Source of the DNA: Dinghuibacter silviterrae
GTDB lineage: Bacteria; Bacteroidota; Bacteroidia; Chitinophagales; Chitinophagaceae
DNA: 64,000 nucleotides
Reading direction: 5' to 3'
Assembly (NCBI RefSeq): GCF_004366355.1
Contig: NZ_SODV01000001.1
Location: 2,914,001 to 2,978,000 of the forward strand
Shown: piece after piece, positions 9,048-62,397 of the stretch
How the letters are laid out: the number at the start of each line of letters is the position of its first letter
Numbering within the stretch: position 1 is the first letter of the stretch
Position numbers and translations under genes: made by a program
The notes under the pieces: generated by a model
Databases searched by the model: none
What the model was told of the DNA's origin: nothing
Seen by the model: the letters and a program-made list of their open reading frames with translations, nothing else

Positions 9048-9110
9048 ACCAAGTTGAATATTTTCTCATAGTCTAAGTGGCCGGCGGGTTTCCACCTCCC
9101 GGCATTTTGA

Positions 9111-9132: not shown

Positions 9133-9136
9133 ATAC

Positions 9137-9697: not shown

Positions 9698-9724
9698 AAT
9701 CATACAGGGTTACCTACTCCTCAA

Positions 9725-9734
9725 GGGTACTATT
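9725..9734 (+). repeat. 10-mer GGGTACTATT, copy 2 (immediately before fecR)
   Basis: Second copy of the motif at 9038-9047, five bases before the fecR ATG at 9740. Placed this close to the start, it may affect fecR translation or mark a second promoter. Confidence 0.4.
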
Positions 9735-9739
9735 TAGGT

Positions 9740-44819: not shown

Positions 44820-44880
44820 ATAGCAGGTGAAATTAATACATTGGCTGAAGCGCTACAAGGCCTATCTTTACCCGGAGGGC

Positions 44881-45459
44881 ATGCAGGAAGATCATCTACT
44901 ATGGAAGGCTTATCTGGACGGCGATAAGACGTCGTTCGAGACCATCTATACCCGGTACCACCGCAACCTTTATGAATACGGGATGCGCAAATGGGGGGAC
45001 GAGGACCTTGTCCGGGACGGGCTGCAGGACCTGTTTGTCCGGCTGTGGGTGAACCGGGGGCGGATTGGACCCACGGACAACATCAAATATTACCTGATCG
45101 CGGCGTTGCGCAATGCGCTGATCAACGCCAGTATACAGCAGGACAAGCGGCGGGCGGCGGAAGTGGGGGAGGAGCCGTTCGAGCTGGCGTACCCGGAGCC
45201 CGGGGCATCGGCGTCCGGCGACCGCCAGGCCCGGCTGGTCGCTGCCCTCGATCAGTTGACCGGCCGCCAAAAAGAAGTCATCTACCTGCGTTATTTCGAA
45301 GACCTCAGCTACGAACAGATCGCTTCATTGATGGATATTTCCGTCAAGGGGATCTATAAGCTCCACTACCGGGCGCTTGACGCCCTCAAGGACATCCTGG
45401 GGATATCCCGCCAGGACCTGCTCCTGTTGCTTGCGATGTGTAAAGTTATTTTTTCTTAA
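44881..45459 (+). CDS. ECF RNA polymerase sigma factor (module 3)
   Basis: ECF sigma-70 factor of 192 residues from the ATG at 44881. A GTG at 44827 would add 18 residues; the ATG is preferred because the conserved region begins right after it, although GGAGG (44874-44878) is closer to it than usual. Region 2 is seen in YTRYHRNLYEYGMRKWGDEDLVRDGLQDLFVRLW (split only for description), and region 4 in LTGRQKEVIYLRYFEDLSYEQIASLMDISVKGIY. The C-terminus is hydrophobic. It heads the fecR-susC-susD-fusion module. Confidence 0.9.
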   Translation: MQEDHLLWKAYLDGDKTSFETIYTRYHRNLYEYGMRKWGDEDLVRDGLQDLFVRLWVNRGRIGPTDNIKYYLIAALRNALINASIQQDKRRAAEVGEEPFELAYPEPGASASGDRQARLVAALDQLTGRQKEVIYLRYFEDLSYEQIASLMDISVKGIYKLHYRALDALKDILGISRQDLLLLLAMCKVIFS

Positions 45460-45514: not shown

Positions 45515-46516
45515 ATGACCTTGGAAAAGTACGATCGATATTCGTTCGAGGACTTTTTGGAGGATGACGACCTGAGGGCCTTTGTCCGGTCCGGAGAGCC
45601 TGCTGCAGCGGCTGTCTGGGCGGTGTGGCTCCGGACGGATCCGTCCAACAGGCAAGCGTATGCGGAAGCGGTGGAATACTTAGGCGTGTTGTACAGCGCC
45701 CGCCGCATCGAACCGTCGCCGGCCTTTAGCCGAAACCTTTGGGAAAACATCGGCACCGGGATTGCGCATGCCGAGCGCCGGCGGGCAAAGGTCCGTGTGT
45801 TGCGGCTGAGCGGCTGGGTCGCGGCGGCCAGCCTGGTGTTGGCGCTGAGCGGCCTTTGGTATTGGCAATCCATCATCACCGTGCGCACCGGAAATGCCGA
45901 GTGGCGAACCGTCGTGCTTCCCGATCAAAGCGAGGTCACGCTCAACGCCAATTCGTCGCTCTCGTATCACCGCGCCTGGCGCTGGAGGGGAGACCGGGTG
46001 GTCCGGCTGGAGGGGGAGGCCTTGTTCAAGGTACGCCACCTCAACCGGGACACCACGACCATCAAACCGGGGGAACGTTTTACGGCGATCGCGGGCGATG
46101 TGTCCGTGGAAGTGCTGGGGACGACGTTTACCATCCGTGAACGAAGAGGCCGGGTATCGGTGGCCCTTCTGGAAGGATCGGTCCGGGTGCGCGGGCTCGT
46201 TTTACATCCCGGTGAATCCGTGGATATCAAAGGCGACAGAACCAGGGTCGTGGCGGTGGCCGGTCTTGACAACCCGCCCCAGGCCTGGACGGCGCACAAA
46301 ATGGTGGCGAGCGGTATGACGGTGCAGGAGATCATGGAGGAATACGAGGACACTTACGGCTACCACATCGTGCTGGACAACCCGGCGCTCGCGGCCAAAC
46401 GGATCGACGGGACGCTGTCGCTGGACACCGAAGACAATGTGTTGTATATGCTCGCCAATATACTCAACTGTAATATCGACAAACAAGGAAAGGTCATCTA
46501 CCTGAGGTCAAAATAA
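45515..46516 (+). CDS. FecR family anti-sigma / signal transducer (module 3)
   Basis: Transducer of 333 residues: cytoplasmic N-terminus (YDRYSFEDFLEDDDLRAFV), membrane helix about 97-117, FecR domain about 125-240 (LPDQSEVTLNANSSLSYH, GEALFKVRHLN, VLGTTFTIRERRG), and DUF4974 domain about 265-333. It is shorter than the module 1 and 2 FecR proteins and belongs to a more divergent subgroup. It starts 55 bases after the sigma gene and ends 24 before susC. Confidence 0.93.
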   Translation: MTLEKYDRYSFEDFLEDDDLRAFVRSGEPAAAAVWAVWLRTDPSNRQAYAEAVEYLGVLYSARRIEPSPAFSRNLWENIGTGIAHAERRRAKVRVLRLSGWVAAASLVLALSGLWYWQSIITVRTGNAEWRTVVLPDQSEVTLNANSSLSYHRAWRWRGDRVVRLEGEALFKVRHLNRDTTTIKPGERFTAIAGDVSVEVLGTTFTIRERRGRVSVALLEGSVRVRGLVLHPGESVDIKGDRTRVVAVAGLDNPPQAWTAHKMVASGMTVQEIMEEYEDTYGYHIVLDNPALAAKRIDGTLSLDTEDNVLYMLANILNCNIDKQGKVIYLRSK

Positions 46517-46540: not shown

Positions 46541-49500
46541 ATGAGAAAAATCGTGGCCGTGCTGCTGCTGATGGGCAGCGTCATTACCGTCGCCGCCCAG
46601 GGCAAGACCATCACCCTCCAGGAAGCGCTTTCGCGCATAGAGCAGCGTTTCCAGGCAAAATTTGCGTATGAGCACAACCTGTTGAAGGGGAAGACGACCA
46701 ACGAAAGCGCGCTCGACGGGAAGACCATAGAGGAAGTCCTGAAAAATGTTCTTTACCCGAATAATTTACTCTTCCTGTACGTCAACGAAAATACTTATTC
46801 GATCGTCGCACGGGACGCGCGCTTCTTCCAGGCGCCAGCGGTAGCCGCTGGAGCGCCGCAAGGCGCCGGTGCGATGTCGGGCGCTGGGGCGTCGCCGGGC
46901 GGCGCTGCGGCGTTGTCGGACGCCGGAGGCGCGCGGGCCCTCCGCGGCCAGGTTCTCGACGAAACAGGTACCCCCCTTGCCTTTGTCAACGTCTGGCTAA
47001 AGGGTACCCGGGTGGGTACCCAAACCACGGACCGGGGCGAGTTTTTCCTCCGGGGCGTGTCGGCGGGTGATACACTGGTATTTACTTACGTAGGGCGTAC
47101 GCCCCTGGCGGTGGCCGTCCTGAACCCGGAATCGGCGCTCACCATCACGATGATCCCCTCGGGCAAAAGGACCGCCCTGGACGAAGTCACCGTCGTCAGT
47201 ACCGGTCTCCAGCAACTGCCGAAGGAACGCGTAACGGGTTCCTTTGTCACGATCGGTGCGAAAGAGCTTTCGCAGGTGCCCACGGCCAACGTCATCCAGC
47301 GGCTCGAAGGACAGCTGTCGGGCGTACAGATAAGTGTCCTGGCGGGAGACCGCAGCTTTTTGTACGGGGGCGCGGGGAATCAGCTGTCCATCAACGGCGG
47401 GACCCGGACGACGGGAACCAACGACTATAATATGCAGATCCGGGGCACCAGCACCTTTATGGGGGAATCGTTTCCCCTGGTCGTGGTCGACGGCGCCATC
47501 ACGGACCTCGACCTATCGACCCTCAACCCCAACGACATCGACAACATCACCTTTTTAAAGGACGCGGCGGCGGCCTCGATCTGGGGCGTGCGCGCCGCCA
47601 ATGGCGTCATGGTCATCAATACCAAAAAGGGCAGGAACGCCAGCGCCCCCCAGGTCAGCTTTTCGGCGGGGACGATGGTGTCGGGGAAACCGGACTTAGG
47701 CTACCTGCGGTTGATGAACAGCCGGCAGGAGATCGGCTACGAAACGGAGCTGGTGCAAAAAGGTTTTTTGACGGCGCAGAACCTGGACGGGTCTTCCTAT
47801 TTTTCGGCCGGTTATTATCCGCATACGGCGGCGGCCCTGGCGCTGGAGCTCCAGGCGGGCACCATCACACAGGCGGCTTACCAGCAGTCGATCGACTCCC
47901 TTGGCGCCATCGACAATACCGGACAGATCCGGAAATACCTGCTCCAACCTGCCTCGAACCAGCAGTACGATCTTTCGGTGAGCGGGGGGACGGGCACCTC
48001 CACCTATTTTTACTCCGCTTCTTACAACGACGAGAAAACGAATACGGTCGGCAATGAAGGAAAGCGGCTGACGCTGACCCTGAACAACAGCTGGAAGCTG
48101 TTTAAGGTGGCCACGTTGTCGACCAGCCTGAAGGGCGCTTTTTTCCGCTACCAGAACGAGGGCTTATCGCTGACCACTCTTTTTCCTACCAGCGGTAAAC
48201 AAACCCTGTTGCCCTATATGCAATTGGTGGATACCAAAGGGAGTTCAATATCCTATGATGTGTATAACCCGGCATGGACGGGTACCCTGTCCGGTTATGC
48301 GGATTGGCGCTACAATTATATGGACGAATTGCACAATTCGGACGACGTGCAAAAGGACGAGAACTACAGCGCGAACATCCGGCTCGACGTGCCCGTCTAC
48401 CGGGGTTTGTCTGCCAGCCTCCAGTACAGCAATGAACGGCTGTTTAGCGACCACCGGGTTTTTTATAACCCGCAGACCTTCTACTACCGGAACCTGGTGA
48501 ATTACTATGCGGGCAACCTCGGGTTGACGTCCGGAGGTATCCTCAACCTGATCAATACCACCGAAAACAACTACGCGCTCCGGGGGCAACTGGCATACGA
48601 CCGGACCCTGGGCCATCTCCACCAGGTCAACGCCATCGCGGGGAGTGAGATCCGGCAAACCGAAGAGGGACAAGGCACCAGCACCCTGTACGGGTACGAC
48701 ACCCAGACGGGGCAGTCGGCCAATGTGGACTTTTCCGACAATGGGTACACGACCGTCGCGGGGTACAACAGCCCGCTCACGGGTGCGCCGGCCCAACAAG
48801 ACAAAGAGCGCAGGTACCTGTCTTACTTTGGGAACGCGGCTTACACCTTTATGGAGCGCTATTCGCTCAGCGCCAGCGCCCGTTACGACGACTACAACAA
48901 CTTTGGTCTTCAGCAACGCTACCGCGCCACGCCCCTGTGGTCGGCGGGCGCCCAGTGGAACCTCGGCAAGGAAGCGTTTCTCCGGAACGTGCGCTGGCTG
49001 GGTCACCTGGGGTTGCGGGCCACCTACGGGGTCAACGGGAACATCTCCACCTCGGTCTATCCGTTTACTAATATCTATCCTACCGGCAACGACTATACGA
49101 CCGGCTTACCCACGACTACGGTCATTAACCTGGCCAACCCGGAACTGAAATGGGAAAAGACTTATGTCACCAACGTAGGCGTGGACTTCGGTCTTTTCCA
49201 GGACCGGTTGAGCGGGTCGGTGGACGTGTACCGGAAACGCGGCACCGACCTGTTGTATCAATTCCCGATCGACGCGGCCCTGGCGGGCACGATCGGGGGC
49301 GGCTACCTCGAACGCAACGCGTCGTCGATGACAGGGAAAGGGGTCGATATCAGCCTGAGCGGTCTGTTGTTGTCCAACAATAACTGGTCCTGGCACGTGG
49401 GCGGCAATCTTTCGTACAACACCAACAAGGTGACCGATAACCGGTTTGACACCAGCTCGATCTCGAATTACACGGTCTCCTACGCGCCGGTGGGTATCCC

Positions 49501-50164
49501 CAACGTCGTGGGCTACCCGACGGACAAGGTTTTCGCGTTCCGTAACGCGGGTTTGAACGCCATCGGCATGACCCGGGTCTACAATGCGGAGGGAGACACC
49601 GTATCGGCCACGTCCCCGGTGTATTTCAAAGACCTGAAATACGCAGGTCGGAGGACCGCCCCGTTTTTTGGAGGGATGAACAGCTCGCTGCGGTACAAAC
49701 GGTTTACCCTGTATGCCCTGCTGACCTACCAGTTTGGGGGTGTCTTTCAAAAACCCACCGTGGACAACTATATCACCGGGTTTTACAACCTCAACTACAG
49801 CGTGGTAGGCGACATCGCCCGTCGCTGGGAGAACCCGGGGGATGAGAACAAGACAAAGGTACCCGGGCTCAATAGTTCGGCGTTTCTGACGAACTACAGC
49901 CTGGTTCGCTACCAGTATTCGGACGCCAACATACTTTCCTCGGATTATATCCGTTTGCGCGAGGTGTCACTGACGTACCAGGTACCGGTCTGGCGCCAGC
50001 GTATCGTCAAAAGTGCGAGTGTGGCACTCGCCGTCCGCAACCTTGGCCTTTTGTGGCGCGCCAACAAGCAGGGCTATGACCCCGACTTTGTCGCTTTACC
50101 CAGCCGTTCGAACAGCCTGCCGGCGGCCAAGTCCTTTAACTTTTCCCTAAACGTTAACTTTTAA
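46541..50164 (+). CDS. SusC/RagA-type TonB-dependent transporter with STN domain (module 3)
   Basis: Outer-membrane transporter of 1207 residues, the largest of the three. Parts: signal peptide (about 1-20); STN domain (about 22-95, ITLQEALSRIEQRFQ); an Ala/Gly-rich linker (about 98-135); CarboxypepD_reg domain (about 137-210, LRGQVLDETGTPLAFVNVWL); plug (about 225-360, VIQRLEGQLSGVQI; LKDAAAASIWGVRAANGVM); and beta barrel. The IWGVRAANGV variant places it in a SusC subgroup different from modules 1 and 2. The stop overlaps the susD start by one base (TAATG). Confidence 0.95.
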   Translation: MRKIVAVLLLMGSVITVAAQGKTITLQEALSRIEQRFQAKFAYEHNLLKGKTTNESALDGKTIEEVLKNVLYPNNLLFLYVNENTYSIVARDARFFQAPAVAAGAPQGAGAMSGAGASPGGAAALSDAGGARALRGQVLDETGTPLAFVNVWLKGTRVGTQTTDRGEFFLRGVSAGDTLVFTYVGRTPLAVAVLNPESALTITMIPSGKRTALDEVTVVSTGLQQLPKERVTGSFVTIGAKELSQVPTANVIQRLEGQLSGVQISVLAGDRSFLYGGAGNQLSINGGTRTTGTNDYNMQIRGTSTFMGESFPLVVVDGAITDLDLSTLNPNDIDNITFLKDAAAASIWGVRAANGVMVINTKKGRNASAPQVSFSAGTMVSGKPDLGYLRLMNSRQEIGYETELVQKGFLTAQNLDGSSYFSAGYYPHTAAALALELQAGTITQAAYQQSIDSLGAIDNTGQIRKYLLQPASNQQYDLSVSGGTGTSTYFYSASYNDEKTNTVGNEGKRLTLTLNNSWKLFKVATLSTSLKGAFFRYQNEGLSLTTLFPTSGKQTLLPYMQLVDTKGSSISYDVYNPAWTGTLSGYADWRYNYMDELHNSDDVQKDENYSANIRLDVPVYRGLSASLQYSNERLFSDHRVFYNPQTFYYRNLVNYYAGNLGLTSGGILNLINTTENNYALRGQLAYDRTLGHLHQVNAIAGSEIRQTEEGQGTSTLYGYDTQTGQSANVDFSDNGYTTVAGYNSPLTGAPAQQDKERRYLSYFGNAAYTFMERYSLSASARYDDYNNFGLQQRYRATPLWSAGAQWNLGKEAFLRNVRWLGHLGLRATYGVNGNISTSVYPFTNIYPTGNDYTTGLPTTTVINLANPELKWEKTYVTNVGVDFGLFQDRLSGSVDVYRKRGTDLLYQFPIDAALAGTIGGGYLERNASSMTGKGVDISLSGLLLSNNNWSWHVGGNLSYNTNKVTDNRFDTSSISNYTVSYAPVGIPNVVGYPTDKVFAFRNAGLNAIGMTRVYNAEGDTVSATSPVYFKDLKYAGRRTAPFFGGMNSSLRYKRFTLYALLTYQFGGVFQKPTVDNYITGFYNLNYSVVGDIARRWENPGDENKTKVPGLNSSAFLTNYSLVRYQYSDANILSSDYIRLREVSLTYQVPVWRQRIVKSASVALAVRNLGLLWRANKQGYDPDFVALPSRSNSLPAAKSFNFSLNVNF

Positions 50165-51555
50165 TGTCTATGCGTCGCTATATACTTGTCCTTTTGTGTG
50201 CCAGCCTGGCGGGGTGTGAAAAGTATGTCAACATCAAGACCCAGGGGACCCTGGTGCCCGGGTCCTACGAGAACTACCGGGAGATGCTCGACAATACGAG
50301 TGAATGGGAACCCGCGCCTTTCCTAGGGGACTATGCCTCGGACGATGTACAATTCGTGGACAGCAGCGCCCAGGTCGTCTCGCTGTCTTCCGACGATTTC
50401 TATGCGCACATCACCAATTGCTACCGCTGGCTTCCGACCATCTATCTGCTCGGGACCTACTATGCCGAGGACGACAACTGGAACGCCCTCTACAATACCA
50501 TCGCGTACGCCAATATCGTGATCACCGAGGCGCCCAGTGCCACCGGCGCCACCCCGGCACAGATCCGGGAACTGATCGCGGAAGCCCTGGTACACCGGGC
50601 GGATGCGTATCTCGGCCTGGTCAATACTTATGCAAAACCTTATACCGCGGCTACGGCATCCACCGACCTCGGCGTGCCCCTGGTGCTGACGGAAACGACG
50701 ACCCAGTCGCTGACCCGGGCTACTATGCAGGACACCTACACGCAGGTCCTCAAGGACCTGCGCACGGCGCTGCCGTCTCTTCCCGCGACCCAGGCCTTCA
50801 ATACCCTGCCGTCTATCCCGGCTGTTTTCGGAGAACTGGCCCGTTGCTTTCTCTACATGAACGAATACGACAGCGCGGCAAAATACGCGGACAGCGCCTT
50901 GTCCTACCGGAACACACTCGACGACCTGACCCAGTATCAAAGCATTTCCGCGGCCAACTATCCCTTGCGGAAGGCCGACCCGGAAGTCCTGTTGTCCAAG
51001 GTAGCGGGAGACGGGGTGAGCGGCTATCCGCCGACCGCCATGCGGTTGAGCGATACGCTGTTGCACGTGTTGGATACAACCGACCAGCGCTATGTATTGT
51101 TTACCACAGACGGATCCAACATCGGGTTCGGCTATACCGGCCGCTATTTCTACAAGGACGCCGCCATGGGTGAGGCCCGGAACGACGGCCCCTCGGTACC
51201 CGAAATGATGCTCATCAAGGCGGAAGCCCTGGCGCGCGCCGGGGACGCAAGCGGCGCGATGAACTGGGTGAACGCGCTTCGGCAAAAGCGGTTCGTCAAC
51301 TACGTTCCGCTGACTGCCACGAATGCAGCCGATGGGTTACAAAAGGTCCTCCAGGAACGCGAACGCGAGTTCTTTTGCCGGATGCTCCGGTGGTGGGACA
51401 TGCGCCGTTTGAAAAGCGATCCCACCTTCCAGGAGACCCTCACGCGCGTCTTTGAGGGCGTGACCTATACGCTGGCGCCCACCAGCAACCGGTATGTATT
51501 CCGGATATCCGATTACGACGAAAAACTCAACCCGGAGATTCAACAAAATCCATAA
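50164..51555 (+). CDS. SusD/RagB family outer-membrane lipoprotein (module 3)
   Basis: Lipoprotein of 463 residues with lipobox SLAGC followed by EKYVNIKTQG. SusD features are DAYLGLVNTYAKPY, the helical repeats around ELARCFLYMNEYDSAAKYADSAL, and LIKAEALARAGDASGAMNWVNALRQKRF. The C-terminal REREFFCRMLRWWDMRRLK block is typical. It belongs to the same subgroup as the module 3 SusC. Translation is coupled to susC through the one-base overlap. Confidence 0.94.
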   Translation: MSMRRYILVLLCASLAGCEKYVNIKTQGTLVPGSYENYREMLDNTSEWEPAPFLGDYASDDVQFVDSSAQVVSLSSDDFYAHITNCYRWLPTIYLLGTYYAEDDNWNALYNTIAYANIVITEAPSATGATPAQIRELIAEALVHRADAYLGLVNTYAKPYTAATASTDLGVPLVLTETTTQSLTRATMQDTYTQVLKDLRTALPSLPATQAFNTLPSIPAVFGELARCFLYMNEYDSAAKYADSALSYRNTLDDLTQYQSISAANYPLRKADPEVLLSKVAGDGVSGYPPTAMRLSDTLLHVLDTTDQRYVLFTTDGSNIGFGYTGRYFYKDAAMGEARNDGPSVPEMMLIKAEALARAGDASGAMNWVNALRQKRFVNYVPLTATNAADGLQKVLQEREREFFCRMLRWWDMRRLKSDPTFQETLTRVFEGVTYTLAPTSNRYVFRISDYDEKLNPEIQQNP

Positions 51556-51563: not shown

Positions 51564-54455
51564 ATGAAATTTGTTTGGAAGTGGCTGTGGCTGGGCTGTC
51601 TGACGACAGCCTCCGCCCAGTCCGTGGAAAAGATGACGGTCACGCCCCAGGCGCCGGTGCCCGGGCAAACCATCCGGATCAGGTACAACGCGTTTAACGG
51701 CCCCTGGACCGCCGTCGTTTACGAATATGATTCCCTATACCACTGGCACACGTTGGATCTCCCGCTCCGGCCCTCCGGAGACACCGCCTGGGCCGCCGAT
51801 GTTGCCGTGCCCGGAGACGCCGGTTTTCTCGCCTTCGCGTTTTATAAGGGGGACACCCTCGTGGACCACAATGGCGATGCCGGGTACGCGGTCTTGCTCC
51901 GTTCCAGCGCGGGTGGCTTCGCACCGGGCGCCGAGGCGGGCTGGGGTTTGCTCCGTTCCCCACACTACAACCTGGGCATCCCGGGATATTTCGGTGAATT
52001 CAGCATCAGTGATACCGCCACCTATATGTGGCTGAGCAACGAGGTGTTGCGGCATCCTTTTGTGGCGCCGCACGTGTTGGTGATCCCGTATGTGGAAGCG
52101 ATGACACGGGCCTTTCCGGACGAGGCCCCCGCGCGGCTCCAGCGGGTGGCGGCTTATTTCCGTCGCCAGGCGCGTCCCGGCCAGGCGGACCAGGCGCACC
52201 TTTTCTGGATCGAAAAACGGTTTTTACGCGACACGCTTGCCGCCGATTCCATCTACACCTCGGCCCTGGCTTTGTATCCCCATGGTGAACTGGCCAAATG
52301 GACGGCGTATCATGCCCTGCAGACCGTACGCTCCATGCAGGACCGGCTCACCGCTTCGGAGCGGTTTCTGACGGACTTCCCTTCCCGGGACGACCGTCTG
52401 GATGCCGAACTGGAGATCGACTACAGCAAAGTCTATCGCAATGTCTTTATGATCGCCGTAGCCACGGGGGACACGGCCGCGATCAACCGCTGGCTCCCGA
52501 CGGCCCCCTTCGACCGTCTCCCCGAACTTTATTACAAGGCCATCCAGATTCCTTTCGACGACCATAAAAGCCAAACGGCCGCGCAGGTTTACCCGCTGGC
52601 GGCCCGTATCCTGGAGTGCGTGGACCGGGCGGCCCCCTATCCGTACCTGTCTCCTTTGCAGTGGACCCGGTACACCACCCAGGCGCTGACATACGAGCGC
52701 CTCACCCAGGTCGATATTTTAAGGGGCGTGGGGCGGAACAAAGAAGCCCTCACCCTGGCCCGTCGCCTCCAGCAGATCCTGCAATACCGCTCCGCCCGGC
52801 TCAACGAAGCAGAAGTGATGCTCCTTCCCGAAAAGGAGCGCCTGCCCGTGATGCGCGAGAGCGTCCGGCTGGACGAGGCTACGGCGTATATCCTTGACCA
52901 GTTGAAGGCGTGGTACCTGCGGCAACACCCCGAGGGTGACGCCGATGCGTACCTGGAAAGCCTGAAGGACACACAGACGATGGCGCTGATGCGGGCGCGC
53001 GTGGCAAAGGAACAGAAGCGTCTGCCGGCACCGGCCTTTTGCCTGGCGGAGCGCAACGGCGACTCCGTCCGCCTGGAGCAAATGAAGGGCAAGGTCGTTG
53101 TCCTTGACTTCTGGGCGACCTGGTGCGCGCCCTGTAAGGCGGGGATGGCCGGGATGAAGATGCTCATGGACCGGTATGCTGCGGATACCAATGTGGTTTT
53201 CTTCTTCATTGATACGCAGGAATCCACACCCGACTATCGGGAGAAGGTGACGTCTTTCCTGCGGGCGCAACACTACGACCGCTTCCGCGTCCTGTTCGAC
53301 AACGGGGAGGACACGTACAAACGCTATGCGGACCTGATCCACACCTCGGGTATCCCCTTCAAGATCGTGATCGACGCGGAGGGCCGGATCAATTTTGCCA
53401 ACATCGGTTATTTCGGAAGCCCGCTGGGTCTGGCGGACGAAATGGACGCGATGATCCGGCTGGCCCATGCAGATCGGCCCGTACATTACGAAGGCAACGG
53501 CATCCATTTTGGCGGCACCCTGACCATGCCCGATGGCAAAGGCCCCTTCCCCGCCGCCGTGCTGATCTCCGGCACCGGCCGCCAGGATAGGGACGGCACC
53601 ATGGCGGGTCACAAGATGTTTGCCGTGATCGCCGACAGCCTCCGCCTTCACGGCATCGCCGTGTTGCGCGTCGACGACCGCGGGGTGGGAGAGACTAACG
53701 GGAACTTTGATTCCGCCACGACAAAAGATTTTGCCAACGACGCGCTGACCGGGCTTCATTTTCTCCAGCGCATTCCGGGTATCGACCCGCACCGGGTCGG
53801 TTTGATCGGGCATAGTGAGGGAGGCGCGGCCGCCTGCATCGCGGCCTCGGAATCGGCGGATGTAGCCTTTGTCGTAAGCCTCTCTGGGCCGGGGGTGAAC
53901 GGATTACAAGCGTTGCTCACGCAAAACCGCCAGTTGATCGGGGGCTCACCCGCCACTGATGTCAACAAACAGCGCTTTGATTCGGTGACGACGCTGTTGC
54001 TCCAGACCGTGTATGCCCATGCCGGCGATACCGACCTGGAGCCCGTTTTAAGAAGCACCTACGCCGCATGGGTGCGCCGCGACAGCGTTTTCATATCGGG
54101 ACTGCCACAAAAAAAGACGGACCATTTCTTTTTCCCTTTTGAAAGCTATGTCCGTCAGGCCGTGGGTCCCTGGTACCGCGGCTTTATCTCCTACGAGCCC
54201 GCGCAGGTGCTCCCGCGTATCCACGTGCCCGTGCTGGCGATCAATGGGGCTCAAGACGTGATCGCGTCCGCGTCCGAAAATTTACAAGGCTTCCGCCGCT
54301 ATACGTCTCCCGGCTTGCTCCAAACCTACGAGGTCCCCGGTGTGAACCACCTCTATCAACATTGTCACACATGCACGACGGCGGAATACGCCAGTTTGAC
54401 GGAGACCTTCGCCCCGGAAGTACTGGACCGCATTCGTTCCTTTATTCTTCTTTAA
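51564..54455 (+). CDS. TlpA thioredoxin / alpha-beta-hydrolase fusion with Ig-like and helical N-terminus
   Basis: Exported protein of 963 residues. Order: signal peptide (about 1-19); beta-sandwich-like segment (about 20-115, KMTVTPQAPVPGQTIRIRY); helical repeat-like region (about 150-470); TlpA thioredoxin domain (about 480-620) with active site WATWCAPC (C521/C524); then an alpha/beta-hydrolase domain (about 640-963). The hydrolase triad is visible as S751 in GHSEGG, D898 in NGAQDV and H929 in VNHLYQH. It is the last gene of module 3, eight bases after susD. Thioredoxin and hydrolase are each known alone behind SusC/SusD pairs; joined in one chain they would place redox and esterase or peptidase activity at the same site. 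No frameshift or internal start suggests a sequencing artefact. Confidence 0.87.
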   Translation: MKFVWKWLWLGCLTTASAQSVEKMTVTPQAPVPGQTIRIRYNAFNGPWTAVVYEYDSLYHWHTLDLPLRPSGDTAWAADVAVPGDAGFLAFAFYKGDTLVDHNGDAGYAVLLRSSAGGFAPGAEAGWGLLRSPHYNLGIPGYFGEFSISDTATYMWLSNEVLRHPFVAPHVLVIPYVEAMTRAFPDEAPARLQRVAAYFRRQARPGQADQAHLFWIEKRFLRDTLAADSIYTSALALYPHGELAKWTAYHALQTVRSMQDRLTASERFLTDFPSRDDRLDAELEIDYSKVYRNVFMIAVATGDTAAINRWLPTAPFDRLPELYYKAIQIPFDDHKSQTAAQVYPLAARILECVDRAAPYPYLSPLQWTRYTTQALTYERLTQVDILRGVGRNKEALTLARRLQQILQYRSARLNEAEVMLLPEKERLPVMRESVRLDEATAYILDQLKAWYLRQHPEGDADAYLESLKDTQTMALMRARVAKEQKRLPAPAFCLAERNGDSVRLEQMKGKVVVLDFWATWCAPCKAGMAGMKMLMDRYAADTNVVFFFIDTQESTPDYREKVTSFLRAQHYDRFRVLFDNGEDTYKRYADLIHTSGIPFKIVIDAEGRINFANIGYFGSPLGLADEMDAMIRLAHADRPVHYEGNGIHFGGTLTMPDGKGPFPAAVLISGTGRQDRDGTMAGHKMFAVIADSLRLHGIAVLRVDDRGVGETNGNFDSATTKDFANDALTGLHFLQRIPGIDPHRVGLIGHSEGGAAACIAASESADVAFVVSLSGPGVNGLQALLTQNRQLIGGSPATDVNKQRFDSVTTLLLQTVYAHAGDTDLEPVLRSTYAAWVRRDSVFISGLPQKKTDHFFFPFESYVRQAVGPWYRGFISYEPAQVLPRIHVPVLAINGAQDVIASASENLQGFRRYTSPGLLQTYEVPGVNHLYQHCHTCTTAEYASLTETFAPEVLDRIRSFILL

Positions 54456-56838
54456 GGCTATCCACCGGCCGCGCGACGGCCGCCCTAAAACTCAGCCACC
54501 CCGTCGTGCCCAGCGCGATAAAGACAAGCACCACCACGGGCACGACCCATTGCCACCACGTAAGCGGCGCGCGGAACGCGTACCCGTCCAGCCACCGGCG
54601 GATGACGAGAAAAGCCAGCGGCAAGGCGCCGAGGCTGCACCAAAGGATCAGCCGGACCACGTCCCAGGTCAGGAGCCCCAGGATGTGCCGGACCGAAGCG
54701 CCCAACACCTTGCGCACGCCGATCTCTTTTGTCCGGCGCGCGGTGGTGTAGGCCGTCAGCCCCAGCAGCCCCATACAGGCGATCAGGATGGCCAGGGAAG
54801 AAAAGACCAGGATGGTGCGGCTGAACTGGATCTCCTGGCGGTACTGCCGGCTGTAAAAATCGTCGAGGTAAAAGAAGTCGAAAGAAGATTCGGGGAAAAA
54901 GCGGTCCCAGACGGGTTTTAGCAGGGCGGGGGCGTCCGTGGAGGCTATTTTTATGGAAAAATATTTCACAGGCACCCAGCCCAGTTTGGGATCCATGCAT
55001 AGGACGATCGGCGTAAAGGGTTTTTGTAAGGACTGCTGGTGATAATCCCGGACGACCCCGAGGACCACGTCCGGGCGGCTGTCGATCGTTTCCAGCCACA
55101 CCTTTTGTCCGACGGCCGCCGCCGGACTGGCAAAGCCAAACTGCCGGACCGCGGATTCGTTCAGCACCACGCCCGTGGAGTCACCGGGGCGGGTGATGTC
55201 AAACCCCCGGCCCGCGACGAGCTGCAGGCCATACGCGTCGATAAAGTCGTGGTCGACCCGGAGCATTTCGTACAACCGTTCGTCGCTTTTTGGTGCGCCG
55301 TACCTTCTGTTCGCACCGAAGGTCGCGACTTCCTTGCCCGGGACGGCCCCCGAGGCGGTCACCGAAATGACACCGGGTAGGGCCAGGAAAGCGGTCTTGG
55401 CGTCCGGCATCTTGTGGTTCAGGTCCGAACCGGCCCCCGGCGCTTTGACCACCACCGTCTGGGCCAGCCGGACCCCGGTATTTTGGCGGCTCATAAAGTC
55501 CATTTGCCGGTAGACGGCGATCGTGCCCGCGATCAACACCAGCGACGCGCCGAACTGGAATGCCACCATCGCCTTGCGCATCCGCACGCCCCGGGCGGAA
55601 AAGGTAAACCTGCCCTTGAGGACGATGGCCGGTTGCAAACGGACCAGGACGAGGGCGGGGTAGATACCGGAGGCCAGAGCGGCGACTGTCAGCAGGACCG
55701 CGATTCGTAGTACGACCATCCAGTCGAACAAAAACCCGCTTACGCCAAAGTGTTCCACCAGCCAGGGCCCGCTGAACGCCACCACCGGCAGCGCCAAAAA
55801 CGCGGCACACAGAAATATCCCCGCGGATTCCGCCAGAAACTGCGCCACCAGAAAGGCCGGCAACGCCCCGCTGACCTTTCGGATCCCCACCTCCCGTGCC
55901 CGGTCAAGGGCTTTGGTCGTGGCGAGGTTGATATAGTTCACACAGGCGATGAGCAAAATCAGGTAAGCGATCACGTCCAGCAGGTCGATGGCGAAACGGT
56001 TACCCTTGACCTCGATCTCATAAGATTTGGCGGGGTTGAGGTGGATGTCGGGCAGCGGCACGAGATGGATGGCCCAGCGCAGGTCTTTGAGCGCCGGCCC
56101 CGTCTTGTACCGTTCGGCCACGGCCGGGAAACCCGCCTCTATCGCGTGGATGTCCGCCCCCGGGGTGAGTTGTACAAACGTATAGCTTTCATGCATGTAC
56201 CAAAAGCGCTTTAACCACTCCGGGGTCGTGGCCCAGGAGATCAGAAAGCTGAACTGCATGGTGGAGTTGGAGGGAATGTCTTTGAACACCCCCGTGACCG
56301 CACAGTGCAGGGTGCCTGCTTCGGTGCTGACGTCCAGGATACGACCCATGGGATCGGCCTGTCCGAAATACTTGCGCGCGGCAGAGGCGGACAGGACGAT
56401 GGTGTTGACTTCCCTAAGGACCGTGGCGGGGTCGCCTTTGAGTAAAGGGTAGGCGAAAAAAGAAAAAAAATTGCTATCGGCATAACACACATGTTCCTCG
56501 CGGAATTTGACTTCCCCATACCGCACGACGCGTTCCGAATTGTACCAGTTGATCCGGGTGTACGACGCAATCCCGGAGAGGTTGTCTTTGATCGCCGGCG
56601 CATACCCGTTGGTGCTCGTGGGCCAGTCGTCGGTCATGTCGTTCCCCCGGTAGAAACGGCTCTCCACGCGGTAGATGTTGGGGGCATGCATGCGGTCAAA
56701 ACTCCGTTCAAAACGGGTATACCCCCCGATCAGAACAAAGGAAGCGATCCCCAGGGCAAGCCCCAGCACGTTGAGCGCGGTGTAGGTTTTGTGCCGCGAC
56801 AGGTGACGCCAGGTCACTAAGAGAATATTGCGGATCAT
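54442..56838 (-). CDS. FtsX/MacB-type ABC transporter permease
   Basis: Inner-membrane permease of 798 residues with two MacB_PCD/FtsX halves. An N-terminal helix (LNVLGLALGIASFVLIGGY) is followed by a large periplasmic domain. Three helices carry DRAREVGIRKVSGALPAFLVAQFLAES, a second periplasmic domain follows, and the last helices carry TKEIGVRKVLGASVRHILGLL. The C-terminus RPVDSLKEE is typical. The open frame extends well upstream, but the true start is the ATG at 56838, inside the DUF92 stop (ATGA overlap). No ATPase gene is seen. The last 14 bases overlap the convergent fusion gene. Confidence 0.93.
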   Translation of the reverse strand: MIRNILLVTWRHLSRHKTYTALNVLGLALGIASFVLIGGYTRFERSFDRMHAPNIYRVESRFYRGNDMTDDWPTSTNGYAPAIKDNLSGIASYTRINWYNSERVVRYGEVKFREEHVCYADSNFFSFFAYPLLKGDPATVLREVNTIVLSASAARKYFGQADPMGRILDVSTEAGTLHCAVTGVFKDIPSNSTMQFSFLISWATTPEWLKRFWYMHESYTFVQLTPGADIHAIEAGFPAVAERYKTGPALKDLRWAIHLVPLPDIHLNPAKSYEIEVKGNRFAIDLLDVIAYLILLIACVNYINLATTKALDRAREVGIRKVSGALPAFLVAQFLAESAGIFLCAAFLALPVVAFSGPWLVEHFGVSGFLFDWMVVLRIAVLLTVAALASGIYPALVLVRLQPAIVLKGRFTFSARGVRMRKAMVAFQFGASLVLIAGTIAVYRQMDFMSRQNTGVRLAQTVVVKAPGAGSDLNHKMPDAKTAFLALPGVISVTASGAVPGKEVATFGANRRYGAPKSDERLYEMLRVDHDFIDAYGLQLVAGRGFDITRPGDSTGVVLNESAVRQFGFASPAAAVGQKVWLETIDSRPDVVLGVVRDYHQQSLQKPFTPIVLCMDPKLGWVPVKYFSIKIASTDAPALLKPVWDRFFPESSFDFFYLDDFYSRQYRQEIQFSRTILVFSSLAILIACMGLLGLTAYTTARRTKEIGVRKVLGASVRHILGLLTWDVVRLILWCSLGALPLAFLVIRRWLDGYAFRAPLTWWQWVVPVVVLVFIALGTTGWLSFRAAVARPVDSLKEE

Positions 56839-57536
56839 CCGAGCACCCCTCCCAGGGCGGCTGCTATAAGTGTGTTCAAAAGATTGACCATATTGTTCGT
56901 CAGCTTGCCCTGGCGCTCCAGGGTCGCCCCCAACACCGAATCCGCCAGGTTGCCGACGGTCCCCGCAAAAACAACGGCCAGCACCCCCGGCCCCCAACTG
57001 CTCCCCATGGCATACACGATGGCCACCAGACAGGACCCGAAAAGCCCTGTCAGCAGGCCTTCCAGGCTGATCACCCCGTCCATCCCGGCCGTGTCCGGTC
57101 CCCAGGTGATGATGTTGATAAACTTCCGGCCGTAGACAATCCCCAGTTCGGAGGACAGCGTGTCCGCGGTGGCCGACGACAATGCCGCCGCCATGGCCAC
57201 AAACAGGCGCGGCCGCTGGGCCGGCAGCAGGATCATCAATATGCCCGCGAGGGCGGCCACGCCGCCGTTGGCAAAGACCTGGCCGCTGTAGCGTTTTTCC
57301 TGGTGACGGACGCCTGAATAGGGGCTGTGTTTTTCTTCCCGTCTCCACGCGGTGGCGAGGGTGGCCAGGACGAAAAAGGTGGCCAGCAAGGCCAGCCCCG
57401 CGTACCCTGCCCCGGTGTAGATGAACATAGCCACCAGCCCCCCGGTCAAACCGGCCCCGGGTGTGAGTTTTCTCCAATAAATGGCGGCCGTGACGCCGGC
57501 CCCGACGATGACAATGGCGGGTATGTCCTGGGTCAT
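56835..57536 (-). CDS. DUF92 family integral membrane protein
   Basis: Membrane protein of about 233 residues with six or so hydrophobic segments. It matches DUF92, the family of TMEM19 and plant phytyl-phosphate kinase VTE6: KRYSGQVFANGGVAAL, AALSSATADTLSSELG, GMDGVISLEGLLTGL, FAGTVGNLADSVLGATLER. The bacterial role is not settled; a prenyl- or phytol-phosphate kinase activity is a guess from the plant member. The start at 57536 is used, with 57554 an alternative. Its stop overlaps the start of the downstream permease gene. Confidence 0.88.
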   Translation of the reverse strand: MTQDIPAIVIVGAGVTAAIYWRKLTPGAGLTGGLVAMFIYTGAGYAGLALLATFFVLATLATAWRREEKHSPYSGVRHQEKRYSGQVFANGGVAALAGILMILLPAQRPRLFVAMAAALSSATADTLSSELGIVYGRKFINIITWGPDTAGMDGVISLEGLLTGLFGSCLVAIVYAMGSSWGPGVLAVVFAGTVGNLADSVLGATLERQGKLTNNMVNLLNTLIAAALGGVLG

Positions 57537-57561
57537 GATAACCCAAGGATACAAAAAATCC

Positions 57562-59979
57562 TCATTCCGAGCGAAGGCTTTTCACCGGGTTGGCAAGGGC
57601 CGCCCGGATCGCCCGGAAGCTGATCGTCACCAAGGCCAGGCCCAGCGCGGAAATGCCCGCCAACGCAAAGATCCACCAGGCGATCCCCGTCTGGTAGGCA
57701 AAGTTTTCCAGCCAGCGGTGCATGGCCATCCAGGTCAACGGGATGGCGATGACCAAGGCGATGGACACCAAACGGAGGAAATCCCCCGCGAGCAAAAAGA
57801 CCAGTTGGGTCGCGTTGGCCCCCAGGACCTTCCGGATCCCGATTTCCTTTGTCCTTTTTTCCACCGTAAAGGCAACCAGGCCAAAAAGCCCGAGGCTGGC
57901 GATGACGATGGCGACGGCGGCAAAAAGGGTAAAGATCTGTCCCGTTTTTTGTTCCTGGCTATACAGCGCCGCAAACCGGTCGTCGAGGAAATAGTAGTCG
58001 AAAGGAAGCTGGTTGTTGAGGGTGGTCCATTCCGTCCGGATGTGGTCCAGCACCCCTTCGACATCCCCGGTATGGATCTTGATCAGGACGCCCCCGAAAT
58101 TGTGCCCCAGCATCATCATCAGCGGCGCGATCTTTTGCTTGACCGAGGTGTAGTGGAAGTCTTCCACGATACCGACGACGTGCCACTCCTTTTGACCGGA
58201 GCCCACGATGATTTTGTCCAGGGCCACCTGGTTGTTTTTATACCCCAGGTCCCGGACGGCGCTTTCATTGATCACGACCGCGCTGGAGTCGCCGGGGAAG
58301 TCCGCCGACAGGTTTCGCCCGGTAACGATCGTCATGCCCAGCGTTTTTATATAGTCGTAGTCCACGTGGAAAATGTTGGTGTGGATCTCGCTCGCGGTTT
58401 CGTTGTCTTTATTTTCCTTGGCAAAAACCTCGGTTCCGTCCGAACCCATCCCGGGCAGTTCCACAGGCACGTCCCTCGACAGGCTTACGGAAGTGACGCG
58501 GGGATCGGCGAGGAGGTGTTGTTTAAACGCGTACTGGTTGGCTTGCAAACCATAGGCGTCCTTTAGGAAAACGACCTGGTCCTTGTCATAGCCCAGCTTT
58601 TTGTGTTGCATATAATACAGCTGGCGGTAGACGATCAGGGTGGCGATGATCAGGGACGTCGAAATGATAAACTGGAACACGACCAGCGTGCTGCGGAGCG
58701 TACTGCGCCTGCCCGAAGCGGCCTTCCCCCGGAGGACCTGGAGGATCTTGAAAGAGGACAGGAAAAAAGCCGGGTAGACCCCCGCCAGGAACCCGGCAAG
58801 GACGACCAGCCCCAGGTCGGTGGCCAGCGCGCCGGGGCTTAGGAAATACCCAAAGGGAAGGCTTTTGCCGGACACCTGGTTGAACCAGGGAAGAAGCAGC
58901 CAGACCAAACCCAGGGCCAGGAGCATGGCGGCTAAGGTCAACAGTAAGGACTCCGTCAGGAACTGCGTGACCAGTTGCGACCGGATCGACCCCAGGACCT
59001 TCCGGATGCCGATCTCGCGGGAACGGCCCGCAGAGCTCGCTGTAGACAGGTTGGTGAAGTTGACGCAGGCCAGCAACAAAATAAATACGGCCAGGGCCGC
59101 AAAGATGTAGACGTATTGACTATCCCCGCCCGGCTCCAGCTCATACTTGGTATGGGATTGAAGGTGGATGTCCCGGACGGGCATCAGGTAAAAGTGCCAG
59201 GCGTCGATCGATTTCCGGGCCTCGGCCAGGCTGACCCCCATATCGTGCACGACCTCCGGTACGACGTATTTTTCAACAAGGGGTGGGAGCTGCCGTTCCA
59301 CCGTTTTCGGGTCCACCCCCTTTTGCAGCAACAGGTAGGTATAAAACCCGATGTTGCTCCACGTATGGTTGTGCATGATCCCCTGGGAGCTCGTTATGCT
59401 GAGAAAGGCGTCGAAATGAAAGTGGGTCTGGTCCGGTATCTTGTCGACGACTCCCGTGACCTTGAAGGGGGCCCCACCGGCCAGGAGCAGGGTCTTTCCG
59501 AGGCCCGGCTCCCCGCCAAAATACTTTTTCTCAAATGCCCTGGTGATCACCATGCTCGACGGCTCCACGAGGGCCGTACGCGCGTCCCCCTCCACCAGGG
59601 GGATGGAAAACAACTGGAGGAAGTTGGAGTCGCACATCGCGATGTTCGTTTCCTTGAAACGTTTGTCCCCATAGTGGACGATCGGAACGGCGGCCTGAAG
59701 GATGCGGGTCGAGGCCAGTACGCCGGGGACCGCTTCCTTGATCCCCTCACCCACCGCCACGTCCACGTCCGGGTAATCCGCTATGCCCCCGTTTTGGTTG
59801 AGTTGTACCCCGACCCTGTACAACTGGTTTGCGTTACGGTCATAACCCGTTTCCCAGGCGATATAGGCCATCATCAGCAGGCAACACGCCAGGCCGACGG
59901 CCAGACCCGTAATATTGATCAGCGAGAAAACCCTGTTTTTCGAAAGGCTTCTCAGGGCGATGCGGAAGTATCTTTTCAT
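57562..59979 (-). CDS. FtsX/MacB-type ABC transporter permease
   Basis: Permease of 805 residues, paralogous to its two neighbours. The N-terminus SLINITGLAVGLACCLLMMAY, the central TASSAGRSREIGIRKVLGSIRSQLVTQFL, and the C-terminal TKEIGIRKVLGANATQLVFLL with final NPVKSLRSE are the two FtsX repeats and tail. The large periplasmic domains between them carry the likely ligand or partner surface. It starts nine bases after the stop of the upstream permease gene. No ATP-binding partner is encoded nearby. Confidence 0.93.
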   Translation of the reverse strand: MKRYFRIALRSLSKNRVFSLINITGLAVGLACCLLMMAYIAWETGYDRNANQLYRVGVQLNQNGGIADYPDVDVAVGEGIKEAVPGVLASTRILQAAVPIVHYGDKRFKETNIAMCDSNFLQLFSIPLVEGDARTALVEPSSMVITRAFEKKYFGGEPGLGKTLLLAGGAPFKVTGVVDKIPDQTHFHFDAFLSITSSQGIMHNHTWSNIGFYTYLLLQKGVDPKTVERQLPPLVEKYVVPEVVHDMGVSLAEARKSIDAWHFYLMPVRDIHLQSHTKYELEPGGDSQYVYIFAALAVFILLLACVNFTNLSTASSAGRSREIGIRKVLGSIRSQLVTQFLTESLLLTLAAMLLALGLVWLLLPWFNQVSGKSLPFGYFLSPGALATDLGLVVLAGFLAGVYPAFFLSSFKILQVLRGKAASGRRSTLRSTLVVFQFIISTSLIIATLIVYRQLYYMQHKKLGYDKDQVVFLKDAYGLQANQYAFKQHLLADPRVTSVSLSRDVPVELPGMGSDGTEVFAKENKDNETASEIHTNIFHVDYDYIKTLGMTIVTGRNLSADFPGDSSAVVINESAVRDLGYKNNQVALDKIIVGSGQKEWHVVGIVEDFHYTSVKQKIAPLMMMLGHNFGGVLIKIHTGDVEGVLDHIRTEWTTLNNQLPFDYYFLDDRFAALYSQEQKTGQIFTLFAAVAIVIASLGLFGLVAFTVEKRTKEIGIRKVLGANATQLVFLLAGDFLRLVSIALVIAIPLTWMAMHRWLENFAYQTGIAWWIFALAGISALGLALVTISFRAIRAALANPVKSLRSE

Positions 59980-59988
59980 ATCAATGGC

Positions 59989-62397
59989 TTATTCAGATCT
60001 AAGGCTTTTTACCGGGTTGGCTTTGGCGGCGCGGATGGTTTGGAAACTCAGCGTGAACAACGCCATCAGCAAAATGATCCCGCCCCCCGCGGCAAACACC
60101 CACCAACTGATGGTTGTCCGGTCCGCAAAGTTGTCCAACCATACGTGGATGCCCCAGTAAGAAAGGGGAACCGCGATGACAAAGGCCAGCGCGACCAATT
60201 TCAGGAAGTCGCTGCTCAACAAGGCGACGATCCTGGCGACCGAGGCCCCCAAGACCTTCCGCACGCCGATTTCCTTTGTCCGTTGACGGGTAGTGAACAA
60301 GACCAGCCCCAGGAGCCCAAGACAGGAAATAACGATGGACAAACCGGTCGCCCATGCGAGGAGCCGGGCCGTGTTTTGTTCCGTCGTATACATCGCTGCA
60401 ATGCTTTTGTCAAAGAACGTATAGTCGAAGTCGTCGTCCGGGTATAGGGTCTTATACGCCGCTTTTATACCGGCGATGGTCTTTGTCCAGTCGGCGCCTT
60501 TTTGCAGGGACAGGTGGAGGGTGTAGGAATTGTTATCGCCCCCATGGATCATCAACGGTTTGATCGGGGAGCGCAGCGACGTTTGATAGAAGTCACTGAC
60601 CACGCCCACAATGAGGTGGCTGTGGTCTTCGCCATCAAGGACATGGTGCCCCAGCGCCTGGTGGGGATCCCGGAACCCCAGCGTACGCGCCAGCGTCTGG
60701 TTGATGAGGTATTCCCTGGGTGTATCGCTTGAGGGGAGATTCTGCCCGGCCAGGAGCCGGAGTCCATAGACCCGGATGTAATTGGTGTCTCCTTCCCTAA
60801 ACTCCGGCTGTATCTTTATCTCCTGTGGCCCCTCTTTGTAGGTAATGCCCATGGCGTTGTAGTTGTCCGAAGCGGGGGGCATCCCCCCCAGGCTGGCGTA
60901 TTCCACACCCGGCAGCGTATTCACCTTATTGAGCAGGGTATGGTTTCTGTGGTCCGCGGCCGCGTAAACATTCCAGGGAAGATTGACAAAGACGATGGCG
61001 TCCTTCCGGTAACCCAGGTCTTTGTGGAGCGCGTAATACACCTGTTTGGATACAAGCAGGGTACCTAAGACAAAAACCTGGGCGATGACGAACTGGAAAA
61101 CCGTGAGCGTTTTGCGAAGCCAGGCCTTGCGTGACTTGGTGGCCCCCATTTGGTTCTTTAGCACGGCGATGGGTTTCAAACCCGCCAGCACCCAGGCCGG
61201 GTAAAAGCCCGCCATCAGGCTCACCACGACGGTCAGCGCCGCCAGGAACGCCAGGACGCCCGGTGCTGCGAACGGGTGGAAGACAATGCCCTCAGGGGTA
61301 AAGTCCGCAAATATTTTTAACAGCGTCGGGGTCAGGGCCGCGCCAATGACCGTGGCCAGCAGCGTCAGGACAAGCGTCTCCCCCAGGAACCGGCGCACCA
61401 GTTGCCAGCGGGTGCTCCCCATGGTTTTGCGGATGCCGATTTCCTTCGCGCGCTGGCCGGCCTGGGCCGTTGTCAGGTTGATGTAGTTGATACAGGCCAG
61501 GAGCAAGAGGAAGAGGCCCGCCGCCAGCAAACCGAAGAGCGCAGCCTTGTTGGCTGTCCGCGCGCCCAATGGATAGTACGTGGCGTTGAAATGAAGGTCG
61601 TTCATCGGCTGGAGCGAGTATACGCTGGATGTATCGTCGGCGTACCTGGCCCGGATCCTGGCCAGTCCTTTGTCCACCTGCACCTTGGTCATCCCCGGTG
61701 ACAGGCGGACAAAACACCGTTGGGTGCCGTACACGCTGTTCCATTCGTGCGACCAGATATTTTTGAGCTGTCCCGTCAGGGTAGGGTAGGAGATAAACTC
61801 CTTGTAATGCAGGTCCGTGTTTTGGGTCAGATCGGCCACCACCCCGGTGACCGCCGTATGGACCGTGTCGTCGTATACAATGGTTTTCCCCAACACCTGC
61901 TCCGGTGTCAGCCCCGGGAAATACACCCTCGCCCGGCTTTCGGTTAGGATCACCTGCCCGGGCGCCTTCAGGTCCTGGTGCGGATCGCCTGCCAGCCAGC
62001 GGTACCCGAACATCGGGAAATAGTGGGCATCGGCAAAGACAATATCCGTTTGCCCCTTAAACGGTCTTGCCGCTTTGGCGGGCAAAACGGTCGCGTCATG
62101 TTCGTAAAACGTCGTCACCGTTTCCACCCCCGTCAGGTCTGTCCGGATCGCGTCCGGGAGCACGCCCGGCACACCGCCGTTGGGATAGCTTTCCCCGTTC
62201 ATGCGCATATCCGTCACCACCCGGTACAACCGGTCCACCCCCGGCTCGAACTTGTCGAACCCGAAGTCGTAACGGACGATCAGGAAGATGACGACGGAAG
62301 CGCAGATGCCGATCACAAGACCGGCCACGTTGATCAATGCAGATACTTTGTTCCGGCGGAAAGACCGCAGGGCCGTCAGAAGGTATTGCTTCAGCAT
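59989..62397 (-). CDS. FtsX/MacB-type ABC transporter permease
   Basis: Permease of 802 residues, first of three in the run. FtsX repeats are seen at LINVAGLVIGICASVVIFLI, TTAQAGQRAKEIGIRKTMGS, TKEIGVRKVLGASVARIVALL and the tail NPVKSLRSE. It lies 43 bases after an unknown gene and nine before the next permease, so the three probably form one transcript. The ATPase partner must be elsewhere, or these act without one; the latter has been suspected for such orphan clusters. Confidence 0.93.
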   Translation of the reverse strand: MLKQYLLTALRSFRRNKVSALINVAGLVIGICASVVIFLIVRYDFGFDKFEPGVDRLYRVVTDMRMNGESYPNGGVPGVLPDAIRTDLTGVETVTTFYEHDATVLPAKAARPFKGQTDIVFADAHYFPMFGYRWLAGDPHQDLKAPGQVILTESRARVYFPGLTPEQVLGKTIVYDDTVHTAVTGVVADLTQNTDLHYKEFISYPTLTGQLKNIWSHEWNSVYGTQRCFVRLSPGMTKVQVDKGLARIRARYADDTSSVYSLQPMNDLHFNATYYPLGARTANKAALFGLLAAGLFLLLLACINYINLTTAQAGQRAKEIGIRKTMGSTRWQLVRRFLGETLVLTLLATVIGAALTPTLLKIFADFTPEGIVFHPFAAPGVLAFLAALTVVVSLMAGFYPAWVLAGLKPIAVLKNQMGATKSRKAWLRKTLTVFQFVIAQVFVLGTLLVSKQVYYALHKDLGYRKDAIVFVNLPWNVYAAADHRNHTLLNKVNTLPGVEYASLGGMPPASDNYNAMGITYKEGPQEIKIQPEFREGDTNYIRVYGLRLLAGQNLPSSDTPREYLINQTLARTLGFRDPHQALGHHVLDGEDHSHLIVGVVSDFYQTSLRSPIKPLMIHGGDNNSYTLHLSLQKGADWTKTIAGIKAAYKTLYPDDDFDYTFFDKSIAAMYTTEQNTARLLAWATGLSIVISCLGLLGLVLFTTRQRTKEIGVRKVLGASVARIVALLSSDFLKLVALAFVIAVPLSYWGIHVWLDNFADRTTISWWVFAAGGGIILLMALFTLSFQTIRAAKANPVKSLRSE

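Follow-up and report, generated by a model that had tools for sequence, protein, structure and literature searches.

A thioredoxin joined to an alpha/beta hydrolase behind a SusC/SusD pair: a candidate processing enzyme for an imported ligand in Dinghuibacter silviterrae

Introduction

Which molecule would be handled by a protein that carries a TlpA-type thioredoxin and an alpha/beta hydrolase on one chain, encoded directly behind a SusC/SusD pair? The question is raised by a gene of Dinghuibacter silviterrae that lies within a 64,000-nucleotide stretch of DNA, which was analyzed as a whole and is called the window below. SusC/SusD pairs are known mainly for glycan ligands, and to our knowledge there is no characterized example of the TlpA-hydrolase arrangement. 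A literature search covering titles and the openings of abstracts returned neither a description of such a fusion, or of an operon of this kind, nor an assigned role for TlpA genes located beside SusC/SusD.

Domain layout of the fused chain

The gene is a single open frame with an ATG start and zero internal stops, and its features are collected with those of the operon in Table 1. The original prediction had described it as a single-chain fusion with an intact CAPC site (C521/C524) and an intact Ser-Asp-His triad (S751, D898, H929), placed at the end of an ECF-controlled SusC/SusD module. Each of these elements was recovered at the residues and in the order given, with Pfam domains in both halves and with ECF, FecR, SusC, and SusD genes upstream on the same strand.

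The N-terminus resembles a signal peptide, and the 963-residue chain is probably exported to the periplasm, to judge from its translation. An AlphaFold2 model of the full chain, built on 30 rows, places strands at residues 24-111, helices at 123-482, and a thioredoxin fold at 493-635, followed by a loose linker in front of a hydrolase part that has low confidence in this model and is covered by three rows only. When modeled separately with 49 rows, the hydrolase gave a confident fold (pLDDT 95.8, pTM 0.93). The strands probably form an Ig-like domain, for which no Pfam match was found, and matches of the helical domain to TPR models are weak and occur in few relatives only. Residues 23-482 as a whole gave no match to PDB entries by sequence up to an E value of 1.

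Table 1. Coordinates in the window of the fused gene, its parts, and the genes of its operon and upstream flank
Feature	Position	Strand	Basis
GH39 gene, upstream of operon	42588-44135	-	Pfam
ECF sigma factor	44827..45459	+	profile matches
FecR-type anti-sigma factor	45515..46516	+	Pfam
SusC TonB-dependent transporter; weak N-terminal STN match below cut-off	46541..50164	+	profile matches
SusD surface lipoprotein	50164..51555	+	Pfam, anchor cysteine
TlpA::alpha/beta-hydrolase single-chain protein (P0001), 963 aa	51564..54455	+	ORF list, translation, Pfam
Signal-peptide-like N-terminus, residues 1-19	51564..51620	+	translation by eye; helix 2-16 in AlphaFold2 model
Beta domain, probably Ig-like, residues 24-111	51633..51896	+	DSSP on AlphaFold2 model
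All-helical TPR-like domain, residues 123-482	51930..53009	+	AlphaFold2 model
TlpA/ResA-type thioredoxin domain, residues 488-635	53025..53468	+	Pfam, AlphaFold2 model, fold search
CAPC redox motif, C521-C524	53124..53135	+	motif scan, alignment
Junction/linker, residues 636-648	53469..53507	+	stop and second signal-like N-terminus here in split relatives
Alpha/beta hydrolase domain, residues 649-962	53508..54449	+	Pfam, AlphaFold2, fold search
Catalytic Ser751	53814..53816	+	49/49 hydrolases
Catalytic Asp898	54255..54257	+	49/49 hydrolases
Catalytic His929	54348..54350	+	49/49 hydrolases
Second CxxC, C934 and C937, directly after catalytic His	54363..54374	+	hydrolase alignment

The two active sites

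All catalytic parts of the protein belong to known families. In the TlpA half, Pfam reports AhpC-TSA at residues 488-610 (E 4.4e-15) and Redoxin at 488-617, both above their gathering cut-offs. The WCxPC motif is present, and W520, C521, P523, C524, and P598, the last of which is presumably the cis-proline of the family, are invariant in 30/30 aligned TlpA rows. Etrx2, ResA, and TlpA are among the best Foldseek matches, which have TMt values of 0.72-0.87. The curated models for TlpA (NF047696, 59.2 versus 230 bits) and ResA (NF002854, 56.2 versus 170 bits) both scored below their cut-offs. The domain shares its fold, its WCxPC site, and the conserved Pro598 with the TlpA, ResA, and Etrx2 oxidoreductases; unlike them, it sits between a hydrolase and a large N-terminal part made of beta and helical domains, and its gene lies behind SusC/SusD.

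The hydrolase half is matched by Hydrolase_4 at 685-780 (E 4.6e-9, 36.4 bits against a gathering cut-off of 27) and by Abhydrolase_6 at 683-932 (E 1e-7, 33.3 against 26.3). The motif scan located CAPC at residue 521 of the thioredoxin and, in the hydrolase, GHSEGG at 749 (holding S751), INGAQD at 893 (D898), and GVNH at 926 (H929), and the three catalytic residues align in 49/49 hydrolase rows. The best curated model is EstD (NF041096), which is matched by 49/49 hydrolases at E 1e-10 or better; the cut-off of this model is 600 bits, and the window's protein reaches 77.8, or 82.6 when the domain is scored by itself, in a match that spans model positions 147-285 of 421. With the EstD-like esterases it has the GxSxG triad in common, and it differs from them by a CxxC located after the catalytic histidine. 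The surrounding sequence is NHLYQHCHTC in the window, the general pattern being NHLFQxCxxC, with C934, five residues past the histidine, present in 46/49 hydrolases and C937, eight residues past it, in 42/49.

The nearest solved structures are mostly esterases, namely feruloyl esterases, lipases, and a PETase, and tricorn factor F1, which we take to be a peptidase, ranks lower. Feruloyl and cinnamoyl esterases, PET46, and the lipase TTL (PDB 7wwh, 3pf9, 8b4u, 7q4j) share the fold with Z scores of 27.6-28.9, an rmsd of 2.8-3.5 over 241-248 residues, and 21-27% identity, but their chains of 251-269 residues have no thioredoxin half, unlike the window's protein. In view of this preponderance of esterases, alpha/beta hydrolase is the best name, and cleavage of a peptide, amide, or ester bond is a prediction.

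Gene order in the window

The SusC and SusD genes share one base, and the start codon of the fusion follows the SusD stop after 8 bases. SusC matches TIGR04056 with 529.5 bits against a cut-off of 368.25, and SusD matches SusD-like_3 with 71 against 27. No carbohydrate-active enzyme of the kind expected in a polysaccharide utilization locus is encoded between the ECF and hydrolase genes of the window, and scans for promoters and terminators returned nothing above chance.

The importer itself is an unlikely client of the TlpA half, because the window's SusC has no cysteine at all. Past the first ten residues of a 27-row SusC alignment, no cysteine column is filled in more than 6/27 sequences. 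In the SusD alignment, also of 27 rows, the anchor cysteine (27/27) is the sole invariant one, followed by columns filled in 18/27 and 13/27. A role for TlpA as a helper for SusC/SusD disulfides was therefore set aside as unlikely, and the target of this half is more likely the ligand or the attached hydrolase. Two DsbD-type genes are located elsewhere in the same genome.

Fused and split relatives

The two enzymes had been said to be usually separate, and this holds for the 16 related loci named from a scan of public genomes, where the halves are separate same-strand genes in 16/16. They are directly adjacent and in the same order in 15/16, the remaining locus (L040) having an M16 peptidase gene between them. 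In 14/16 of these loci the stretch fetched begins within FecR, which leaves the upstream ECF position outside. By eye, the separate hydrolase genes start with a signal-like sequence of their own, and fused chains have neither the intervening stop nor this second signal-like start.

Reading of the DNA revealed single chains in five further genomes, with lengths of 998 (L104), 1105 (L105), and 1007 (L126) residues, or of 1004 (L125) and 1014 (L127) residues when counted from an internal ATG, and all five have the same ECF-FecR-SusC-SusD genes upstream. The fused form is present in 6 genomes from 4 genera (g1, that of the window, and g16, g71, and g3), all in one family, and the architecture and gene-neighbor searches called for at the outset hence contradict the concern that it might be unique to one assembly. 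The fusion is real, it occurs in several genomes, and it is more than a chance event. The split L106 shares a genus with L104 and L105, and its 478-residue hydrolase has an additional N-terminal domain. The L105 fusion (7142-10459) has an extra domain of ~125 residues between its halves, and by eye the same domain fronts the L106 hydrolase.

Relatives were sought at cut-offs from 1e-30 to 1e-85 with the best 2-4 candidates per genome scored, so distant fusions may be missed. Among 195 genomes of the same family, one match besides the window's own runs unbroken through both halves (residues 22-961, 52%), and 13 of 394 genomes, the window's included, have a match at E 1e-85. The other genome of the window's genus is 91% complete and lacks such a protein, with nothing better than a match at 1.5e-31. 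At E 1e-70, samples of 348 genomes from the order and of 395 from the phylum, with the two top candidates scored in each genome, yielded no fused chain outside the family. The phylum sample did give three matches in other families, all confined to the hydrolase half. Two long open frames that resembled fusions, of 1156 residues in G184:C3 and 1046 residues in G114:C1:1705146, were rejected on inspection of the DNA, which shows two genes in each case.

Origin of the fusion

Separate trees were built from 34 rows of the TlpA half and 52 rows of the hydrolase half; in its sequence composition the window's TlpA half is atypical for the tree model. One clade unites the window, L104, L105, and the split L106, with support of 100/99 in the TlpA tree and 100/100 in the hydrolase tree, and L125-L127 make up another, supported by 100/100 in either tree. 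In each tree the fused label has to change three times, and well-supported branches force three and two of these changes. Judged from sequence, the ancestral state appears to be a pair of genes that were joined later in the fusions, because they contain neither the stop nor the second signal-like start. The branching pattern also suggests that two or more joinings, or two joinings and one re-splitting, would be simpler than a single old fusion, because the latter would require repeated splitting with a new signal gained each time.

Clues from neighboring genes

Gene neighborhoods can provide hints regarding the ligand. The window's unit has the order ECF-FecR-SusC-SusD-TlpA-hydrolase, and all six fused chains are found in units of this type. 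Across 24 loci of the window type that bear a pair or a fusion, identity to the window is 39-56% for SusC and 40-62% for SusD, with L117 left out. In a second operon type, SusD and TlpA are separated by DUF4843 and PKD_2 genes (L039, L108, L109, L111, L112, L113, L115, L116). Neighbors were assigned by a Pfam scan for 30 genes, and for the remainder the comparison was limited to the genes of the window and seven query proteins.

Peptidases recur in these neighborhoods. Among 52 sequences screened, which include one duplicate since L117 and L043 agree in gene sizes and appear to be one genome, there were six with M16 peptidases (L037, L040, L145, L146, L147, L148), five with S9 peptidases, one with an aspartyl protease, and one with DsbD, and 9/52 have one of these peptidases. 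The S9 gene directly follows TlpA in L114, L118, L146, L147, and L148, and no hydrolase match was found within the stretch fetched for any of the five. Two of them, L114 and L118, are also the most distant members of the TlpA tree. At L110:6912-8168, a gene with two retroviral-type aspartyl protease domains begins 7 bases after the hydrolase gene. At L145:7839-16232, genes for TlpA, the hydrolase, DsbD, and M16 stand in a row behind SusC/SusD, with DsbD directly after the hydrolase; this row is a whole set for reducing and cutting. DsbD is a usual electron donor of periplasmic reductases. The same screen found no S9, M16, or aspartyl peptidase and no DsbD at the six fused loci.

The S9 genes of three of these loci are at L146:4453-7050, L147:9625-12219, and L148:10015-12612, and that of L146 weakly matches a lasso peptide isopeptidase model (78.4 bits against a cut-off of 400). 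Carbohydrate-related genes also occur, in the form of a GH127 gene after S9 on the same strand in L114 and, behind L105, of a GH30 gene with a further SusC/SusD set. The six-gene unit from ECF to hydrolase contains no carbohydrate enzyme in the fused relatives. The phylum search pointed to 13 places outside the window's genome, of which 12 were fetched; four of these (L145-L148) have the order SusC-SusD-TlpA, and in seven the stretch contains nothing that matches SusC or SusD, so the arrangement is not shared by all TlpA relatives. At L150:7223-11093, two tandem TlpA genes lie behind an ECF-FecR-TonB receptor unit.

A proposed pathway and its rivals

The explanation preferred here, to which we would give slightly less than an even chance, is that the protein is a periplasmic processing enzyme for the ligand imported by its own SusC/SusD pair, and that a peptide-like ligand is imported, relieved of a disulfide, and hydrolyzed. 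The ligand might be sensed through SusC, FecR, and the ECF factor, which would switch the operon on, and SusC/SusD would then carry it into the periplasm. There the N-terminal beta and helical domains could retain the ligand or provide a docking site for a partner, the TlpA domain would reduce its disulfide with electrons from a DsbD-type membrane protein, and the attached hydrolase might then cut a peptide, amide, or ester bond. A peptide ligand and a reductive role are favored because peptidases, and once DsbD, are encoded in related operons, and the neighboring genes make a peptide more likely than a glycan.

A known system offers a partial parallel. RagAB is reported to be implicated in protein uptake (PMC11817032). 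The SusC/SusD pair is common to the window and to RagAB and other SusCD peptide importers, but unlike these the window's operon has ECF-FecR control and a TlpA::hydrolase, and a peptide ligand is suggested for it by neighboring genes.

The coupled reduction and cleavage of one imported ligand that the original prediction envisaged thus stands in part: the fusion, the conserved residues, and the SusC/SusD context agree with it, and the disulfide, the peptide or depsipeptide ligand, and the common target keep the status of proposals. Points against it are that a peptidase is encoded in 9/52 sequences and in none of the six fused loci, that DsbD appears in 1/52, that the five S9 loci gave no hydrolase match in the stretch fetched and two of them have the most distant TlpA halves, that L114 has GH127, that the other genome of the window's genus lacks the protein, and that the nearest hydrolase structures are mostly esterases.

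Some of these points suit a different ligand, an ester-decorated glycan or a phenolic ester, for which the hydrolase would be an esterase and TlpA a general periplasmic helper. The match of 49/49 hydrolases to EstD (the window's being far below the cut-off), the feruloyl esterases and lipases among the best structures, the GH39 gene upstream on the other strand, and the GH127 and GH30 genes of L114 and L105 speak for it, yet the six-gene unit of the window and of its fused relatives is free of carbohydrate enzymes and peptidases replace or accompany the hydrolase in 9/52 sequences, which leaves this reading unlikely. The TlpA half might instead serve its own hydrolase by keeping the redox state of C934/C937, and the fusion would be a built-in redox switch or maturation aid. 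Both cysteines, directly after the catalytic histidine, are present in 42/49 hydrolases and in 27/29 from TlpA-linked loci. However, they are also present in 15/20 other hydrolases (neighbors were read for L002 only, which has no TlpA match within its 15 kb), whereas TlpA-linked L110 lacks both and L041 the second, and TlpA also occurs in S9 operons without such a hydrolase. A self-directed switch through these cysteines is possible and not favored, because 15/20 others have both and TlpA-linked L110 has neither, and we rate this explanation as a little less probable still.

The remaining alternatives concern the joining itself. Loss of a stop codon between adjacent, co-translated genes might have yielded the fusion as a neutral by-product with independent halves, as L107 and L106 illustrate with genes in the same frame, 0 and 18 bases apart, that a short deletion would join; that the searches showed fusions in one family only, and none in the other genome of the window's genus, fits as well. 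But fused forms lie in two separate clades, each without a second signal-like N-terminus, and the pair stays together even where split, so that neutral joining ranks at the foot of the unlikely explanations that merit discussion. An assembly or frame error uniting two genes, another concern raised initially, could appeal to the separate halves of all 16 named relatives. It is rejected because of the five further single chains in other genomes, one of them aligned unbroken over 22-961 at 52%; an error would moreover leave the second signal behind, and none is present at the junction. We regard it as exceedingly improbable.

For the processing enzyme proposed above, the presence of the fusion in two clades and of peptidases, and in one case of DsbD, in sister operons yields a testable proposal regarding SusC/SusD ligands. 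That the genes are neighbors in most relatives examined and fused in two lineages points to a single imported molecule, perhaps a peptide, as the target of both steps. If true, some SusC/SusD pairs import cystine-bearing peptides that need reduction before cleavage. A dedicated import-reduce-cut pathway of Bacteroidota for disulfide-bearing peptides, running from DsbD through TlpA to the attached hydrolase or to the S9 or M16 enzymes of sister operons, with the fusion as a hand-over, is a more doubtful extension.

Genes flanking the operon

The fusion is adjoined on the opposite strand by MacB/FtsX-type permease genes at 54442-62397. The 1034-residue ORF at 54442-57546 opens at a TTG with a long front section overlapping the ORF at 56835-57554, so its true start is probably internal; the third permease gene, at 59989-62397, is a relative by eye only. 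At the other end, a 223-residue ORF at 44148-44819, on the opposite strand and with no Pfam match at E 0.01, appears by eye to encode a membrane protein.
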